Shown piece after piece: positions 10,258-25,711 of a stretch of DNA of 27,293 nt. The notes under the pieces were generated by a model. That model worked only from the letters and a program-made list of their open reading frames with translations, searched no databases and was not told the DNA's origin. The DNA comes from a virus. How positions within the stretch are numbered: the first letter of the stretch is position 1; every line of letters begins with the position of its first letter. The DNA lies in the IMG/VR virus record IMGVR_UViG_3300042945_002509, positions 1 through 27,293 of that record. One strand, 5' to 3'. The position numbers were made by a program, and so were the translations under genes.

Positions 10258-10285
10258 TATTATTCTCCGTTATTGAAAGTTTAAG

Positions 10286-10639
10286 TGGACGAGGGGGCAT
10301 CGAAGCCCCGTCTTGCGATATTTCTAATTACATCTTCTACAAGTTTATTTTGTTCATAGGTTAAATAGGACGATAGAACAAACAAGATTCATTCCTATCT
10401 TACCAACTGCTCTTAACCTACAACCCGTTGGACATTGTAAGTGCAGAGGGATTTGACGACAGACTTTTGATCGCTACCCTCATTCGCAATCGCAGTCTGT
10501 TACCGCCCGTTTTTATTAGGCAGCAAGTGCTAACTGAGTTTTGCCAGTTAAAGCATTTGATCCAATTTTAAAGTGGCCTCAGATCAACCACTACTTGCTT
10601 ACATAATTTTCCATATCCAATCGATACCTTTACTCGCCC
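10286..10639 (-). ncRNA. ssrA: Transfer-messenger RNA (tmRNA)
   Basis: The 354-nt gene-free stretch folds as a one-piece tmRNA. The 5' GGGCGAG pairs with the 3' CUCGUCC as a 7-bp acceptor stem (one G-U), with discriminator A and no encoded CCA. After the acceptor, GGUAUCGAUUGG matches the conserved GGAUUCGACGGG region. The tag frame at 10516-10545 encodes GKTQLALAA then UAA UAA. PK1 is evident (GUGG/CCAC with UUGAUC/GAUCAA), as is PK2 (CAGACU/AGUCUG with GAGGG/CCCUC). The T arm GGGGC/GCCCC closes a 6-nt UUCGAU loop, one nucleotide short of canonical. It would act with host SmpB in trans-translation. No smpB is in the window. Confidence 0.93.
10516..10545 (-). other. tmRNA tag reading frame
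   Basis: The resume codon is probably GGC, preceded by UUAACU, giving the tag GKTQLALAA followed by tandem UAA codons. The LALAA end resembles ssrA degrons recognised by ClpXP. If the resume codon were one triplet earlier the tag would begin with Thr. Confidence 0.85.
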
Positions 10640-11093: not shown

Positions 11094-11167
11094 TCCGACT
11101 ACTAGGACTTGAACCTAGAACCTTGAAATTATGAGTTTCCTGCTCTAACCAATTGAGCTATAGTCGG
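11094..11167 (-). tRNA. tRNA with CAU anticodon, probably tRNA-Ile2 (lysidine)
   Basis: 74-nt cloverleaf: acceptor CCGACUA/UAGUCGG (7 bp) with discriminator A and no CCA; D arm GCUC/GAGC; anticodon loop CUCAUAA on a stem whose outer pair is G-A mismatched; T arm CUAGG/CCUAG with loop UUCAAGU. The paired C1-G72 argues against an initiator tRNA. The C5-G68 pair and the D-arm, anticodon-loop and UUCAAGU context resemble E. coli tRNA-Ile2. The adjacent lysidine synthetase (6 nt away) strongly favours Ile(AUA) over elongator Met. Identity is inferred, the fold is clear. Confidence 0.93.
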
Positions 11168-11173
11168 GTGATT

Positions 11174-11824
11174 TTATGCTGATTGATTAATGATTTCTGT
11201 TTCTAGTTGTAGAATTTTTCTTTTAGCGAATTTCTCTAGCGATAATTTGTGGTTATTCATTTCTGGAATAATATAATTGCGAATCCAATTCCGGCGACTG
11301 CCCTTTGGGGACAAGTTCGTTTCATCTTCAATAATATACCGTGTAAGGTTGTTTCTGTCAACATACTCCGCTAAATCTTTTTTTCTGGAAAGTAAAAACG
11401 GATGAGCGATAGAAAACGATCCAAAATTCGACACTAGTTCAAAAGGACGATGATGAGCATGGCCACGAAAACAGTTTAATAAATAACTCTCTACCCAATC
11501 GTTTAAATGATGTGCTGTTATAATCACTCCGTTAGTAGCCAGTTTGCTATAAAAATCCAGTCTGGCATTTCTACACTCTGCTTCTGTGGTCAAATTTTTT
11601 CCAACCCCTATATGTCCTTTCAATCCAATATCAGCACAAAACCCTAGGAATCTTTCCACCATAATAAGATTTTGTTTTCTTAAAGCATGGTTAAAGTGGA
11701 TAGGGATTAAATTATATCCTTTATTAAGCAAAAACATAAAACCAGCAACGCTATCAACGCCCATAGATACGGCAAAATGATAAGTTTTATCTTTAGGCAA
11801 AATCGTTCTGATAGTTCTAATCAT
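11174..11824 (-). CDS. tilS: tRNA(Ile)-lysidine synthetase-like PP-loop ATPase
   Basis: 216 aa, the catalytic domain alone. The PP-loop is S20-M-G-V-D-S25 (SGGxDS variant), followed by HFNHALR (43-49), ECRNARLDFY (83-92) and TAHHLNDWVESYLLNCFRG (103-121), all TilS-type motifs, then EDETNLS and RRNWIRNYIIP. TilS ligates lysine to C34 of tRNA-Ile(CAU), changing decoding from AUG to AUA. The tRNA-binding C-terminal domains of longer bacterial TilS are absent, and the second Gly of the PP-loop is Met. The tRNA substrate candidate lies 6 nt downstream in the same orientation. There is no strong Shine-Dalgarno before the ATG. Confidence 0.87.
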   Translation of the reverse strand: MIRTIRTILPKDKTYHFAVSMGVDSVAGFMFLLNKGYNLIPIHFNHALRKQNLIMVERFLGFCADIGLKGHIGVGKNLTTEAECRNARLDFYSKLATNGVIITAHHLNDWVESYLLNCFRGHAHHRPFELVSNFGSFSIAHPFLLSRKKDLAEYVDRNNLTRYIIEDETNLSPKGSRRNWIRNYIIPEMNNHKLSLEKFAKRKILQLETEIINQSA

Positions 11825-21835: not shown

Positions 21836-21982
21836 TCATTCCTGCACCTTTGTTCCCATATCGTATGGGTATCCATCTTTGGGATCATCGCTATAAACAC
21901 CTTCATAATCATTATCCCACCAAGGAATTTTACTGTCTGGAAGATTCTCAGATTGTGATTCTTCGTTAATTTGAAAACTCAT
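21836..21982 (-). CDS. Small acidic protein
   Basis: 48 aa, acidic and aromatic (IPWWDNDYEGVYSDDPKDGY), probably poorly structured. Its ATG overlaps the stop of the upstream gene as ATGA. No family recognised. Confidence 0.62.
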   Translation of the reverse strand: MSFQINEESQSENLPDSKIPWWDNDYEGVYSDDPKDGYPYDMGTKVQE

Positions 21983-22206
21983 ATAGTTCTTTCTATAGAA
22001 TTTTTAGATTCATTGAAATTTCTTAATGTATCAATAATAGAAAACAAAGTATCTACATCAAATTCTTTCTCTGTGGGAGTAAATGTCCACCACTGTCTAT
22101 CTTTTTTTATGAAATAGCCATGTTCGCTTTTATAAATAGAGTCGCTCATTCTTTCAAGATGAGGGCCGTTACATTTCCACGGAGTAATACAGTTAGGACA
22201 TTCCAT
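21979..22206 (-). CDS. Small protein downstream of structured RNA copy 1
   Basis: 75 aa from the ATG at 22206 (MECPNCITPWKC...); in-frame codons further upstream fall inside the structured RNA and are not used. C3, C6 and C12 could bind metal. The message begins with the conserved RNA at 22229-22321, whose 3' stem ends 22 nt before the start codon. No good Shine-Dalgarno is visible. Function unknown. Confidence 0.68.
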   Translation of the reverse strand: MECPNCITPWKCNGPHLERMSDSIYKSEHGYFIKKDRQWWTFTPTEKEFDVDTLFSIIDTLRNFNESKNSIERTI

Positions 22207-22228: not shown

Positions 22229-22321
22229 GCGGCATTTCTCAGTCTTACACAGAATCCCGCCAAGAGTCTACGGAGTTGATTTAAGTTTGGATACCCGCGA
22301 CCAAACACCTTTCGGCTCAAC
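22229..22321 (-). ncRNA. Structured RNA element, copy 1
   Basis: 93 nt homologous to 25587-25677. It folds as an outer stem GUUGA/UCAAC enclosing a CC-GAAA-GG mini-hairpin and a hairpin GUUUGG/CCAAAC with loop UCGCGGGUAU. A conserved single-stranded UCCGUAGACUC follows, then a long hairpin with base GCGG/CCGC and AUU/AAU above a G-G mismatch. Copy 2 has the same folds with different stem bases (GGGA/UCCC and GCGA/UCGC) and identical loops, which is covariation. Its first base is exactly the predicted +1 of the promoter at 22328-22355. No match to a known class. Confidence 0.8.
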
Positions 22322-22932
22322 TATTCCACTATATCATAAGTTTCCAACTCGTCAAGACAAATAAACTTTGTTTGTCCATATTGTATGGTACGAGATTGAT
22401 GCCAATGACCAAAAAGCCATAAATCTGGTTCATGAATATTTAACAACTCATTTAGCGCCCAGCCAGTAGTATTCTCATATATTTTATCCCCAGGATTTAG
22501 CATCAATGCCGCTATGGTTTGAGGACAATCGTGAGTAATAACTATTTTGGGTTTTATGGCTCTATATAGTTCTCTAGCGTTCATAAACTGATCTACACTA
22601 ACCTGTTCATTTTCCCACCAACTAATTCCAATAGTACGATAATGCCTATCAATACTATATGCTCCACGATAATAGAAAAAATCTATTCCGTTAAAATTAT
22701 TTACATAGCCATAGTCAGTCAAAAAATGAGGATAATTCCAGCAAATATCATAGTTATCATGATTACCGCCAATAATAATATGTTTAGTATGGTCTACATT
22801 TTTCAGAGTATCATACTTAAAACCGAAATCTCCCAACTGAACAGTATATGGGTATCTTTCTGTCTCTCTGATAATTCTGTGATAACGCTCATACTTACCA
22901 TGAACATCACCTATAACAGTTACTTTACTCAT
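22321..22932 (-). CDS. Calcineurin-like metallophosphoesterase
   Basis: 203 aa. Motifs in order: VIGDVHGK, QLGDFG, IIGGNHDN, ITHDCPQT and LFGHWHQS, a complete two-metal phosphoesterase centre. It differs from the second phosphoesterase at 20225-20800 in spacing and sequence, so it is not a recent duplicate. Possible substrates include phosphodiesters, nucleotides and RNA 2',3'-phosphates; undetermined. Its stop codon's last base is the predicted +1 of the structured RNA. Confidence 0.9.
   Translation of the reverse strand: MSKVTVIGDVHGKYERYHRIIRETERYPYTVQLGDFGFKYDTLKNVDHTKHIIIGGNHDNYDICWNYPHFLTDYGYVNNFNGIDFFYYRGAYSIDRHYRTIGISWWENEQVSVDQFMNARELYRAIKPKIVITHDCPQTIAALMLNPGDKIYENTTGWALNELLNIHEPDLWLFGHWHQSRTIQYGQTKFICLDELETYDIVE
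22328..22355 (-). promoter_or_regulatory. Promoter for structured RNA copy 1
   Basis: TTGACG (22350-22355), 16-bp spacer, TATAGT (22328-22333) with TG extended -10, lying inside the 3' end of the phosphoesterase gene. Six nt separate the -10 from the first G of the RNA, the same distance as at copy 2. Confidence 0.75.
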
Positions 22933-23221
22933 TTTTGATTTTCTCTAGTTCCTCTATGGTTTCATTGCGTCTATGGTGCCATAGTCGGGCGAGTCCGGTT
23001 AAATTATCAGTATAATCCATATCATTCGGGTTGTCAAATACAAAATCGGCCAGACTCTCAGATAACTTTAAAACATCTTTTGGCGTTAGTCTATGCTCAC
23101 TATAGTCAGCGTAGGAATATACCCTAAGACAGAATGGCCTATCCTTAAGAAGAGGATTATGATGTAGTTCTATCAACAGATCATTATTTATCTCTATGGT
23201 CTGTTTTTTATATTCTGACAT
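22925..23221 (-). CDS. Hypothetical protein, possible paralogue of gene upstream
   Basis: 98 aa. PFCLRVYSYADYSEHRLTPKDVLKL followed by a helical tail resembles FFRVYNS...DYRITAEEV in the gene immediately upstream. AGGAAG lies 9 nt before the ATG. Function unknown. Confidence 0.7.
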   Translation of the reverse strand: MSEYKKQTIEINNDLLIELHHNPLLKDRPFCLRVYSYADYSEHRLTPKDVLKLSESLADFVFDNPNDMDYTDNLTGLARLWHHRRNETIEELEKIKNE

Positions 23222-23448
23222 TTGCGAGTTCTTCCTAATGCCTTGCTACTAAAGTCTAATTGTTTATTGTCCTCGTCCTCTATTAAGGCATTAAAATCGG
23301 ATAATAATTCTATCTCTACTTCCTCTGCTGTAATCCTATAATCTGTAAATATGTTTTTGTCTTTAGAATTATAGACCCTAAAGAAATATTTATTATCTAT
23401 TGGGCTATATAAAAGAAAACCTCTGATGCCTTTTGCTGAAATTTCCAT
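23194..23448 (-). CDS. Hypothetical protein, possible paralogue of gene downstream
   Basis: 84 aa. Beta strands (GFLLYSPIDNKYFFRVYNS), then DYRITAEEVEIELLSDFNALI. Overlaps the next gene by 28 nt and the previous one by the TAATG at its start. No family recognised. Confidence 0.7.
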   Translation of the reverse strand: MEISAKGIRGFLLYSPIDNKYFFRVYNSKDKNIFTDYRITAEEVEIELLSDFNALIEDEDNKQLDFSSKALGRTRKCQNIKNRP

Positions 23449-23735
23449 TATAGCATACCGTATTCTTGCCCTTGTAGCGGGTCTTTTTCATAAGGATAGT
23501 TAAATGGACCAAGATTTTGTTTACGCTTTTGCTTTATCCATGTAAGAGTATCGTCAAAACATTTGTCACAAATTTGAATATCAAACTTGATCCCGTCATA
23601 TTTTGATCCATAGCCCCATAATGCTTCTAGAGTAGCATACTCGCTGCCAATTTCTTCCACAGAACAAGAACTACCACAAATATCGCAATAAACTTTATCT
23701 TCAACTTTTTTTTCGATCTTCTTATATGTTTTCAT
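23448..23735 (-). CDS. Conserved phage zinc-finger protein
   Basis: 95 aa from ATG 23735, which has GGAAA about 7 nt upstream; a longer frame from 23756 is disfavoured. CDICGSSC and a later CDKCFDD give a four-Cys zinc site, with EYATLEALWGYGSKYDG between, a pattern I recognise in phage hypotheticals. TAATG coupling to the next gene. Confidence 0.78.
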   Translation of the reverse strand: MKTYKKIEKKVEDKVYCDICGSSCSVEEIGSEYATLEALWGYGSKYDGIKFDIQICDKCFDDTLTWIKQKRKQNLGPFNYPYEKDPLQGQEYGML

Positions 23736-24168
23736 CGAATATTTCCATATCGTCAAAGTTATAGGGCTCGACAGTCCAGCCTAGTTTTAATAGGTCTAGC
23801 CTTATCTCATCTGTAACAAAACCCTCACCAACAAAGCCATCGGTATTATGTCCTATGCCACTACAATACCAATCAATATAATCTCCTTTTTCATTTAGAT
23901 CAGCAACAATACCGCCAGCATATCTCCAAGAACAAGTCCATTCTTTTTTGTTTTGTAAAAATCTATTGTTACATAAAGCGGCGTATAAATTCTGGCTATA
24001 AACAGCACTATATTTACATTTATTGGCAATCCATTCAGAACCTCTTAAATCCCAACCTAGATCAGTGTCTTTTGGGGTTTCTTTCTGAGACAACATATGT
24101 TTTATTGAATCAAAATCATCTTGAGTAATATCTCCTTTATCCAGAGCCTTCTTATAGTGATTAGTCAT
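23722..24168 (-). CDS. Conserved phage protein (CSWRYAGGIVAD)
   Basis: 148 aa from the ATG 7 nt after GGGG; a longer form from 24204 would overlap the upstream gene. LYAALCNN, WTCSWRYAGGIVAD, GDYIDWYCSGIG and a LGW segment form a pattern widespread in phages, function unknown. Cys and Trp conservation hints at a compact enzyme or binding fold. Confidence 0.8.
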   Translation of the reverse strand: MTNHYKKALDKGDITQDDFDSIKHMLSQKETPKDTDLGWDLRGSEWIANKCKYSAVYSQNLYAALCNNRFLQNKKEWTCSWRYAGGIVADLNEKGDYIDWYCSGIGHNTDGFVGEGFVTDEIRLDLLKLGWTVEPYNFDDMEIFDENI

Positions 24169-24178
24169 AAAACTACCC

Positions 24179-24397
24179 CTATCGGGACTTGTGAAGTATT
24201 TCATGCCAATGTTTCTCTAGGTGGTTCATTGTGTCTAGTATTTTACGATCATTATAAAAACAGTCAAGATGAGAACCTGTGAGTTCTCTATATTTAGCGG
24301 GCCATACGTTATTTAAGCAATTCATAATATTCTGGCCTTCTCTAATACCTAAATGGTACTGGCTATCAATATAGTTTTTAAATTGCTGAAACGTCAT
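24179..24397 (-). CDS. Small conserved phage protein
   Basis: 72 aa from the ATG 8 nt after AGGG, immediately after the upstream stop. FKNYIDSQYHLGIREGQNIMN then GSHLDCFYND and a helical end recur in phage hypotheticals. No function known. Confidence 0.72.
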   Translation of the reverse strand: MTFQQFKNYIDSQYHLGIREGQNIMNCLNNVWPAKYRELTGSHLDCFYNDRKILDTMNHLEKHWHEILHKSR

Positions 24398-24398
24398 A

Positions 24399-24614
24399 TC
24401 AAATACCCTGTTGCTTAAAATATTCAACCATAATTCCTGCCGTATCTGGTACGCTATTCCCTCCCCAATAATATCTGGCAACAATATTTCTCATTTTATG
24501 AATTGTCGGGATATGTCCATATCTATCAGAGTATTTTTCTTCATACTCTGCTTTCATATACATTCCAACTAAATTAAAAAAATAGTTAACGCTTTCTTCT
24601 GCTTTCTGATTCAT
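24399..24614 (-). CDS. Small hypothetical protein
   Basis: 71 aa from the ATG overlapping the upstream stop as ATGA, with AGGAAG 9 nt upstream; a TTG two codons earlier is an unlikely start. Predicted helical with YWGGNSVPDTAGIMVEYF near the end. Confidence 0.68.
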   Translation of the reverse strand: MNQKAEESVNYFFNLVGMYMKAEYEEKYSDRYGHIPTIHKMRNIVARYYWGGNSVPDTAGIMVEYFKQQGI

Positions 24615-25342
24615 GTCCAAAGACTTCCTCTGATCTTAATGAGTTCGATAAGCATTTTAGTATCTTCTTTTTCATAATCGTCTTGCATTTTACTGATTTT
24701 TTTATAATAACTCTTGCCGTTCTTTTCCTCAGAGAAAACTTCATAAGGGTCTGGTCTATTATTTCTATTTTTCCACCAGTGATACAACTCTGTTGTTTTA
24801 CGAGCGGCACCTGCCTGCTCTGTTAGGTCGCCAAACCCCTTATCTCCCTTTCTAAAGCCATAGTCTTTATTATAGGTCAAACTACTAGCCCATTTTAAAT
24901 AATCAAGCCCTGCCTCAACACAGCGACCGTGAACAAATTTATACTTCTTTTCCTTATAACACTTGAATAAATGGGCATATTCTACTTCAACAAGATCAAC
25001 AAGTTCATTAAAAAGACCATGAATAATTCTATAATCTAAGTCATAGTAATTACCCGGCTTTAATCCGGTATTAAGACAATGAGTTTTGTCTATAAATCTA
25101 TTCCGAACATAAGCCTCTATAGTATAGTAAATATCACAGGGTGAATAAACTATATCCTGTAAACGATCAAGCAGTTTTTCTGCCACCCAATATCTATAAG
25201 GATGCTTAGTTTGAGCCTCTTTACGCCACTCATCCCAACCTTCCCATGCTAGTGCGTATGGTTTATTCGTGCCTCTAATCCAGTCTGCCAGACTAGAACA
25301 ACTCCAGTAGTTTATTCTACTTCTTTTACTTAATTTAAACAT
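24611..25342 (-). CDS. Conserved phage protein of unknown function
   Basis: 243 aa. The blocks INYWSCSSLADWIRGTNKP, WVAEKLLDRLQD, RNRFIDKTHCLNTG, HGLFNELVDLVEVEYAH and ELYHWWKNRNNRPDPYEV recur in a widespread family of phage hypotheticals. It is predicted helical and soluble. No catalytic signature can be named. The gene is well placed within its operon, 2 nt from the stop of the small gene upstream. Confidence 0.83.
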   Translation of the reverse strand: MFKLSKRSRINYWSCSSLADWIRGTNKPYALAWEGWDEWRKEAQTKHPYRYWVAEKLLDRLQDIVYSPCDIYYTIEAYVRNRFIDKTHCLNTGLKPGNYYDLDYRIIHGLFNELVDLVEVEYAHLFKCYKEKKYKFVHGRCVEAGLDYLKWASSLTYNKDYGFRKGDKGFGDLTEQAGAARKTTELYHWWKNRNNRPDPYEVFSEEKNGKSYYKKISKMQDDYEKEDTKMLIELIKIRGSLWT

Positions 25343-25343
25343 A

Positions 25344-25565
25344 TTAGTCTAGTTCCACATTGTGTTCATTTAATAGTCTATAAAACTCTTCACGAATTTT
25401 TTCAAGAGCATCATCGGCACTCTTAAAATCGTTATGATATTTTCGCCAACTTCTTAACTGGTTTGCAAAATCCCATAACATATTTTTTATTTTACCAGCA
25501 TTAATAGAGGTATCAAATTCTCTCTGTTCTTCTGGTAGATTGAATTGTAGTATCGCTTTTGGCAT
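25344..25565 (-). CDS. Small phage protein (LQFNLPEEQREF type)
   Basis: 73 aa from ATG 25565 (GGA 7 nt upstream); the ATG at 25577 has no ribosome-binding site. MPKAILQFNLPEEQREFDTSINAGK and a helical region with FANQLRSWRKY recur in phages (ILxFNLPEExeEF). It follows structured RNA copy 2 directly, so that RNA is its leader or is processed from it. Confidence 0.75.
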   Translation of the reverse strand: MPKAILQFNLPEEQREFDTSINAGKIKNMLWDFANQLRSWRKYHNDFKSADDALEKIREEFYRLLNEHNVELD

Positions 25566-25586
25566 TATTTTGTCCATATAAATGAA

Positions 25587-25677
25587 GCGAAATTTCTCAG
25601 TCTTACACAGAATCTCGCCAAGAGTCTACGGAAGTTGATTGTGGGAATACCCGCGATCCCGACCTTTCGGCATCAAC
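25587..25677 (-). ncRNA. Structured RNA element, copy 2
   Basis: 91 nt homologous to 22229-22321. It has outer stem GUUGAU/AUCAAC, CC-GAAA-GG hairpin, hairpin GGGA/UCCC with the same UCGCGGGUAU loop, conserved UCCGUAGACUC, and a terminal hairpin GCGA/UCGC with AUU/AAU above one G-U pair. The apical CUGUGUAAGACUGAGA is identical to copy 1. Stem changes relative to copy 1 preserve pairing. The predicted +1 of the promoter at 25684-25711 is the first G. The 3' end is set by the last stem; no intrinsic terminator follows. Confidence 0.8.
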
Positions 25678-25683
25678 TTTTTT

Positions 25684-25711
25684 ATGATACCACACCATCG
25701 GTATTTGTCAA
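25684..25711 (-). promoter_or_regulatory. Promoter for structured RNA copy 2
   Basis: TTGACA (25706-25711), 16-bp spacer with CCGATG four bases after the -35, TATCAT (25684-25689) with TG extended -10. Six nt separate the -10 from the RNA. The span 25712-25769 up to the next gene holds nothing else I can identify. Confidence 0.83.

Follow-up and report, generated by a model that had tools for sequence, protein, structure and literature searches.

Bacteria and Gram-positive phages possess 5′ mRNA stabilisers, in which a structured or bound 5′ end protects any message lying behind it; known examples are short hairpins or ribosome-binding stretches that lack near-invariant, tertiary-looking loops. 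The genome of phage HK022 has two putRNAs, each about 70 nucleotides (nt) long, situated downstream of an early promoter and containing an RNA triplex in its first stem (PMC9378689). The class 1 exoribonuclease-resistant RNAs (xrRNAs) of flaviviruses are built around a three-way junction of helices P1, P2 and P3, whose P3 loop can pair with a downstream segment and for which base triples have been proposed (PMC5760640, PMC7527734), and the bacterial enzyme RNase J1 is blocked by an xrRNA (PMC5760640). Here we describe a structured RNA element of 91–93 nt, present in two copies in a 27,293-nt stretch of viral DNA (IMG/VR record IMGVR_UViG_3300042945_002509, positions 1 to 27,293; the window hereafter). 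On the evidence of sequence comparison, it defines an uncatalogued RNA family, which falls broadly among structured phage leaders and is carried, as a rule once per genome, by large uncultured phages.

Homologues and covarying fold

IMG/VR was searched with a pattern derived from the two shared loops and with looser patterns, and contigs were examined with a covariance model, R1. The loop-based pattern returned dozens of relatives, and the looser ones brought in copies with other P2 loops together with the divergent copy L221; the core regular expression lists 60 copies, near-duplicate contigs being counted. Model R1 matches 42 of 42 and 18 of 18 contigs tested, and copies left out of model building score at E values of about 1e-12 to 1e-19. 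The search for homologues suggested in the original prediction, made by pattern scans plus a covariance model, has yielded copies from about 60 IMG/VR contigs, with covariation among them.

Exactly one credible copy is present in each of 14 contigs out of 14 in the range 180–381 kb, and two copies are found solely in the window and one sister contig. A leader present many times per genome is ruled out by this count of one copy per contig, and two weak second matches, G029:10040 (E = 0.007) and G049:50207 (31 bits), are taken as chance; the sequence at G049:50207 is without the conserved motifs. A DNA search of isolate phage records with copy 2 gave no match, the element is absent from LR756511, the closest relative by metallophosphoesterase, and a pattern scan of 84,980 GTDB genomes produced 12 matches, none of which is a convincing member as judged by the model (best 21 bits). 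The terminases of two carriers are unrelated: that of G026 matches those of Bacillus Slash/SPbeta-type phages and of a Microcystis phage at about 25%, and that of G042 is T4-type and 49% identical to its counterpart in the 595-kb LR756511.

Each RNA comprises the three-way junction P1–P2–P3 with a near-invariant P3 loop (L3, UCGCGGGUAU), the likewise near-invariant sequence CCGUA just 3′ of P1, a joining segment (J) and then a variable P4/P5 hairpin. The parts of the two copies are as follows.

22229–22321, minus strand: entire copy 1, read from 22321 to 22229, 93 nt
22275–22321, minus strand: copy 1 three-way junction; P1 is 22321–22317 with 22279–22275
22316–22307, minus strand: copy 1 P2 with GAAA loop, part of the three-way junction
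22306–22301 with 22290–22285, minus strand: copy 1 P3, part of the three-way junction
22291–22300, minus strand: copy 1 loop L3, UCGCGGGUAU
22269–22273, minus strand: copy 1 CCGUA
22262–22268, minus strand: copy 1 joining segment J, GACUCUU
22229–22260, minus strand: copy 1 3′ hairpin P4/P5, GCGG..CCGC plus AUUCU/AGAAAU
25587–25677, minus strand: entire copy 2, read from 25677 to 25587, 91 nt
25634–25677, minus strand: copy 2 three-way junction, based on covariation; P1 is 25677–25672 with 25639–25634
25671–25669 with 25664–25662, minus strand: copy 2 P2 with GAAA loop, part of the three-way junction
25660–25657 with 25646–25643, minus strand: copy 2 P3, part of the three-way junction, based on covariation
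25647–25656, minus strand: copy 2 loop L3, UCGCGGGUAU, near-invariant across homologues
25627–25631, minus strand: copy 2 CCGUA, proposed pseudoknot partner for GCGG of L3, not provable by covariation
25620–25626, minus strand: copy 2 pyrimidine-rich joining segment J, GACUCUU, covarying with the P5 purine strand; may act as a third strand or pair in an alternative way
25587–25618, minus strand: copy 2 3′ hairpin P4/P5, GCGA..UCGC plus AUUCU/AGAAAU

The folding energies of the two copies are unexceptional (z = 0.28 and −2.08), so that the case for the fold rests on homology and covariation. In an alignment of 46 distinct copies fitted to the structure, standard pairs fill 96.2% of the cells over 21 pairs, and two-sided changes are seen at 17 of these 21 pairs, compared with at most 8 of 21 in controls in which the pairing partner was slid. 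The covariation score is 0.475 against at most 0.132 in the slid controls, and the result holds in an unfitted alignment (0.342, with controls no higher than 0.167). The compensatory changes are located in P1, P3, P4 and P5; P2 serves as a structural hairpin whose loop can be exchanged, with UUAA, ACAA, UCAA, UUCG, GUAA and others occurring besides GAAA. Sequence and covariation across the 46 copies bear out the earlier description of two 91–93-nt elements whose loops are shared and whose stems differ but still pair. The helices listed there are present, but the closing helix P1 (GUUGA/UCAAC), which makes a three-way junction of the 5′ half, had been missed.

In the divergent copy L221, P1 reads GUCU/AGAC, P2 AGUC/GACU and P3 AACGAA/UUCGUU, and despite the alteration of all three helices UCGCGGGUAU and CCGUAGACUUU are retained. 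The exceptions in L3 are UAGCGGGUAU in L338 and L347 and a different last base in a few copies. GCGG of L3 and CCGU are complementary and plausibly pair as a pseudoknot; both sides are essentially invariant, so that covariation cannot probe this pairing. J tracks the P5 purine strand in two registers, each scoring above shuffled sequences in tests in which related types are not independent: the parallel third-strand register scores 80 against 70.5 ± 2.4 in shuffles (0 of 2000 as high), and antiparallel pairing scores 89 against 78.8 ± 3.6 (0.35% as high). A triplex of J with P5 is suggested by these sequences.

Comparison of the elements with Rfam 15 using cmscan returned nothing at gathering or relaxed thresholds, the best sub-threshold matches scoring 11.8–14.9 bits where the cut-offs are 35.6–55, and our literature search found no description of the motif. 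The absence of an Rfam match upholds the view that this is a structured RNA outside known classes. The Rfam matches in the window are a phage transfer-messenger RNA (tmRNA) and one transfer RNA (tRNA) only.

Start codons, promoters and neighbouring genes

The promoters and genes adjoining the two copies are listed below.

22328–22355, minus strand: copy 1 promoter-like TTGACG-16-TATAGT, 6 nt ahead of the element, within the end of the metallophosphoesterase gene
25684–25711, minus strand: copy 2 promoter TTGACA-16-TATCAT, 6 nt ahead of the element
22321–22932, minus strand: metallophosphoesterase gene (PF00149), conserved upstream neighbour
21979–22206, minus strand: first gene downstream of copy 1, 75 amino acids, without NCBIfam match
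25344–25577, minus strand: first gene downstream of copy 2, 77 amino acids, without NCBIfam match

The main evidence that the RNA is to be read as a 5′ leader is its near-fixed distance from a start codon. The next ATG follows the 3′ stem after 23 nt in copy 1 (22206) and after 10 nt in copy 2 (25577), in agreement with the earlier placement of each copy fewer than 25 nt before a small phage open reading frame (ORF). Among the homologues, AUG lies 6–27 nt past the hairpin in 43 of 48 copies, as against 3 of 24 tRNA/tmRNA genes of the same phages, whose distances are scattered from 2 to 967 (Fisher p about 1e-10, relatedness ignored); L087, L093, L057, L322 and L325 are the exceptions to the short spacing. 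The first downstream genes of 46 contexts fall into 22 unrelated families, mostly of small unknown proteins, which argues that the leader has been kept while the genes were swapped. No U-tract is conserved after the hairpin, where two or three U are usually followed by A, and an ordinary intrinsic terminator is ruled out because the U-tract is too short in most copies. Inspection revealed no conserved anti-Shine-Dalgarno sequence or sequestration of the Shine-Dalgarno region.

Both copies had been described as starting exactly at the +1 of their own promoters. The first G (22321; 25677) does lie 6 nt past a −10-like hexamer in each case, TATAGT (22333–22328) and TATCAT (25689–25684), separated by a 16-nt spacer from the −35 hexamers TTGACG in copy 1 and TTGACA in copy 2. 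A strong TTGACA/TATAAT-like sigma70-type promoter with the exact 6-nt gap is, however, found in 32 of 50 distinct contexts, so that 'always at +1' is too strong; the gap is 7 nt in two further contexts, and the remaining 16 are without a well-placed strong promoter. The copy 1 hexamers also serve as codons in the conserved end (LDELETYDIV) of the gene upstream, the final base of whose TAG stop codon is the first G of the element, and in L027, L248 and L328 the same hexamers overlap the element. We consider it likely that the transcript of most copies starts at the first G of P1, and doubtful that copy 1 starts at the +1 of a promoter of its own.

The metallophosphoesterase gene is directly upstream in 51 of 60 copies, with other genes in this position in L011, L097, L317 and L322. 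Copy 2 is a duplicate accompanied by the promoter and by a segment similar to the last part of the metallophosphoesterase gene of L005, which indicates that promoter and leader are transferred as one unit. The element of G026 and that of G031 sit in a region that contains the majority of the strong sigma70-type promoters in the genome, all on one strand, and that we read as the early region. This region has a promoter every 1–2 kb and few predicted terminators. The window matches it, and a tmRNA follows the element by about 12–13 kb in both the window and G026. At one threshold, the window has 18 strong sigma70-type promoters on its minus strand and 0 on its plus strand, and just one of the 18 leads into an element, so that a general leader of every early promoter is ruled out.

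Several other RNA features were observed in these genomes. The phage tmRNAs are assigned by Rfam at 88–92 bits (window 10283–10639, minus strand, and L385 16964–17318); ARAGORN does not call the one in the window. At 11094–11167 (minus strand) of the window, a tRNA with a CAU anticodon stands beside the gene for a TilS-like protein (11174–11824, minus strand; TIGR02432 E = 4.8e-24, just under the cut-off), and from the sequence this pair is possibly a phage tRNA-Ile2 with its own lysidine synthetase. The stretch of G026 from about 130 to 150 kb (L383, L384) is GC-rich (0.42–0.44), strongly skewed and poor in long ORFs, with many strong promoters and scattered tRNAs; Rfam accounts for the tRNAs only, and the stretch may hold additional unknown RNAs. 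A Pistol ribozyme (51 bits) is found at L395 10940–11002, in a tRNA-rich region of the 223-kb relative G031, and a near-perfect 28-bp hairpin (L372 6562–6623, −38.5 kcal/mol) occurs in G044 some 20 nt past the element, which in that genome has no gene directly behind it.

Possible functions of the leader

Leader, riboswitch and trans-acting RNA had been offered in the original prediction without a choice between them. The 22 gene families and the AUG distance favour a gene-independent cis leader, and a classical riboswitch is disfavoured by the absence of a conserved terminator or Shine-Dalgarno sequestration; taken together, the sequences make a cis leader of some kind, be it a barrier, a sensor or put-like, the probable identity of the element. 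The RNA family persists in phages whose terminases are unrelated, although the surrounding genes turn over, which points to the RNA itself as the target of selection.

As to mechanism, transcription of most copies would begin at the first G of P1, driven by a host-type promoter; the RNA folds into the P1–P2–P3 junction and then the P4/P5 hairpin, and an unrelated small gene has its start codon at a near-fixed distance. Pairing of L3 with CCGUA, and J lying along P5, would give a compact fold burying the 5′ end. Such a fold might serve mainly as a 5′-end barrier and spacer, shielding the message from 5′-end-dependent decay and keeping the ribosome-binding region open, and the result would be expression of any early gene placed behind the leader. 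Where promoterless copies lie inside an operon, the fold would halt decay arriving from upstream. We favour this barrier tentatively, at rather less than even odds, because the xrRNA topology is a three-way junction whose loop forms a pseudoknot with a segment downstream, and one xrRNA can stop RNase J1; the argument is one of topology only. Several observations weigh against it. Many strong promoters of the early region (18 in the window) are without a leader, which implies that early genes do not generally need one, and simple stabilisers need no near-invariant loops. P1 starts at the likely +1, which leaves no 5′ strand for the threading of an xrRNA-like ring. The copy in L322/L372 is followed by a 28-bp hairpin and has no gene start for 133 nt, and L325 has no gene start for 739 nt. 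We regard as distinctly unlikely the fuller proposal of a phage counterpart of the exoribonuclease-resistant RNAs, that is, a 5′ barrier that is portable, needs no protein, has a tertiary fold and might include a third strand of pyrimidines, and that large phages would keep before a changing early gene to guard its message from host 5′-end-dependent decay.

The leader might instead sense a ligand or protein: the 5′ junction and L3/CCGUA would bind a metabolite or protein, and J, by pairing with the P5 purine strand or elsewhere, would set the expression of the early unit. The conserved 5′ domain with its near-invariant loops, the variable 3′ hairpin just before the start codon and the covariation of J with the P5 purine strand speak for such a leader, but 22 unrelated first-gene families are unlike a metabolite switch, and neither a conserved terminator U-tract nor, by inspection, a conserved anti-Shine-Dalgarno sequence accompanies them; we give this reading a low probability. 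Alternatively, the element could be a trans-acting or stand-alone structured RNA, such as a small RNA released from a 5′ untranslated region (UTR), to which its neighbours are irrelevant. Exactly one copy in every contig of at least 180 kb, the turnover of the downstream genes and the possession of a promoter by most copies are in keeping with this, as is L322, an intergenic copy with a strong hairpin next to it and no gene for 133 nt. It is nevertheless unlikely given the short, near-fixed AUG distance in 43 of 48 copies, which sets the element apart from tRNA/tmRNA genes, and given that no conserved terminator closes the RNA.

An improbable reading is that the leader, like the put RNAs, binds RNA polymerase while it is being transcribed and keeps the enzyme from pausing or terminating in the unit that follows. 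The HK022 parallels of length (about 70 nt), early promoters, occurrence twice per genome and triplex (PMC9378689), the fact that most copies begin at the likely +1, and a possible three-stranded J/P5 speak for it; against it, few terminators are predicted downstream, the independent promoters are many, the near-fixed AUG distance would be unneeded and the put shape of two stem-loops is unmatched. A DNA-level feature, for example an origin of replication primed by a structured RNA, would suit a single copy per genome with a promoter, but it is very improbable, as in neither G026 nor G031 does the element coincide with a GC-skew extremum or a switch of coding strand, and both base-pair covariation and AUG spacing indicate RNA and mRNA.

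The function of the element, once established, would reveal by what means early messages are controlled in large phages in the absence of gene-specific regulation, and the element could serve as a portable leader for expression work in laboratory strains.

Comparison with described RNAs

The element shares with riboswitch leaders a conserved folded 5′ domain, a variable 3′ hairpin and a position in the 5′ UTR, and its near-invariant loops are compatible with ligand binding by an aptamer domain of that type. It departs from them in that Rfam returns no match, that neither a conserved terminator nor, by inspection, Shine-Dalgarno sequestration is present, and that the downstream genes are unrelated.

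Like putL and putR of HK022, it is a phage RNA of similar size that lies at or near the +1 of early promoters and to which the gene behind is irrelevant; the early-transcript, promoter-proximal position is common to both, a strong promoter lying 6 nt upstream in 32 of 50 copies. The defining activity of put RNA is the suppression of pausing and termination through the zinc-binding domain of RNA polymerase. Put RNA consists of two long stem-loops, the first with a triplex, whereas the element is a covarying three-way junction with one hairpin, lies at a near-fixed distance from AUG and has few terminators behind it that would call for read-through.

With xrRNAs the element has in common a junction supported by covariation and a P3 loop complementary to a downstream segment, although in the element the pseudoknot strands are invariant and the pairing is a proposal only. 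Unlike an xrRNA, its P1 begins at the likely +1, so that no 5′ strand threads a ring, and its host is bacterial; Rfam detects no xrRNA match, and any resistance of the element to exonucleases would be a prediction from topology only. The resemblances to put RNA and to xrRNA are leads, not memberships.

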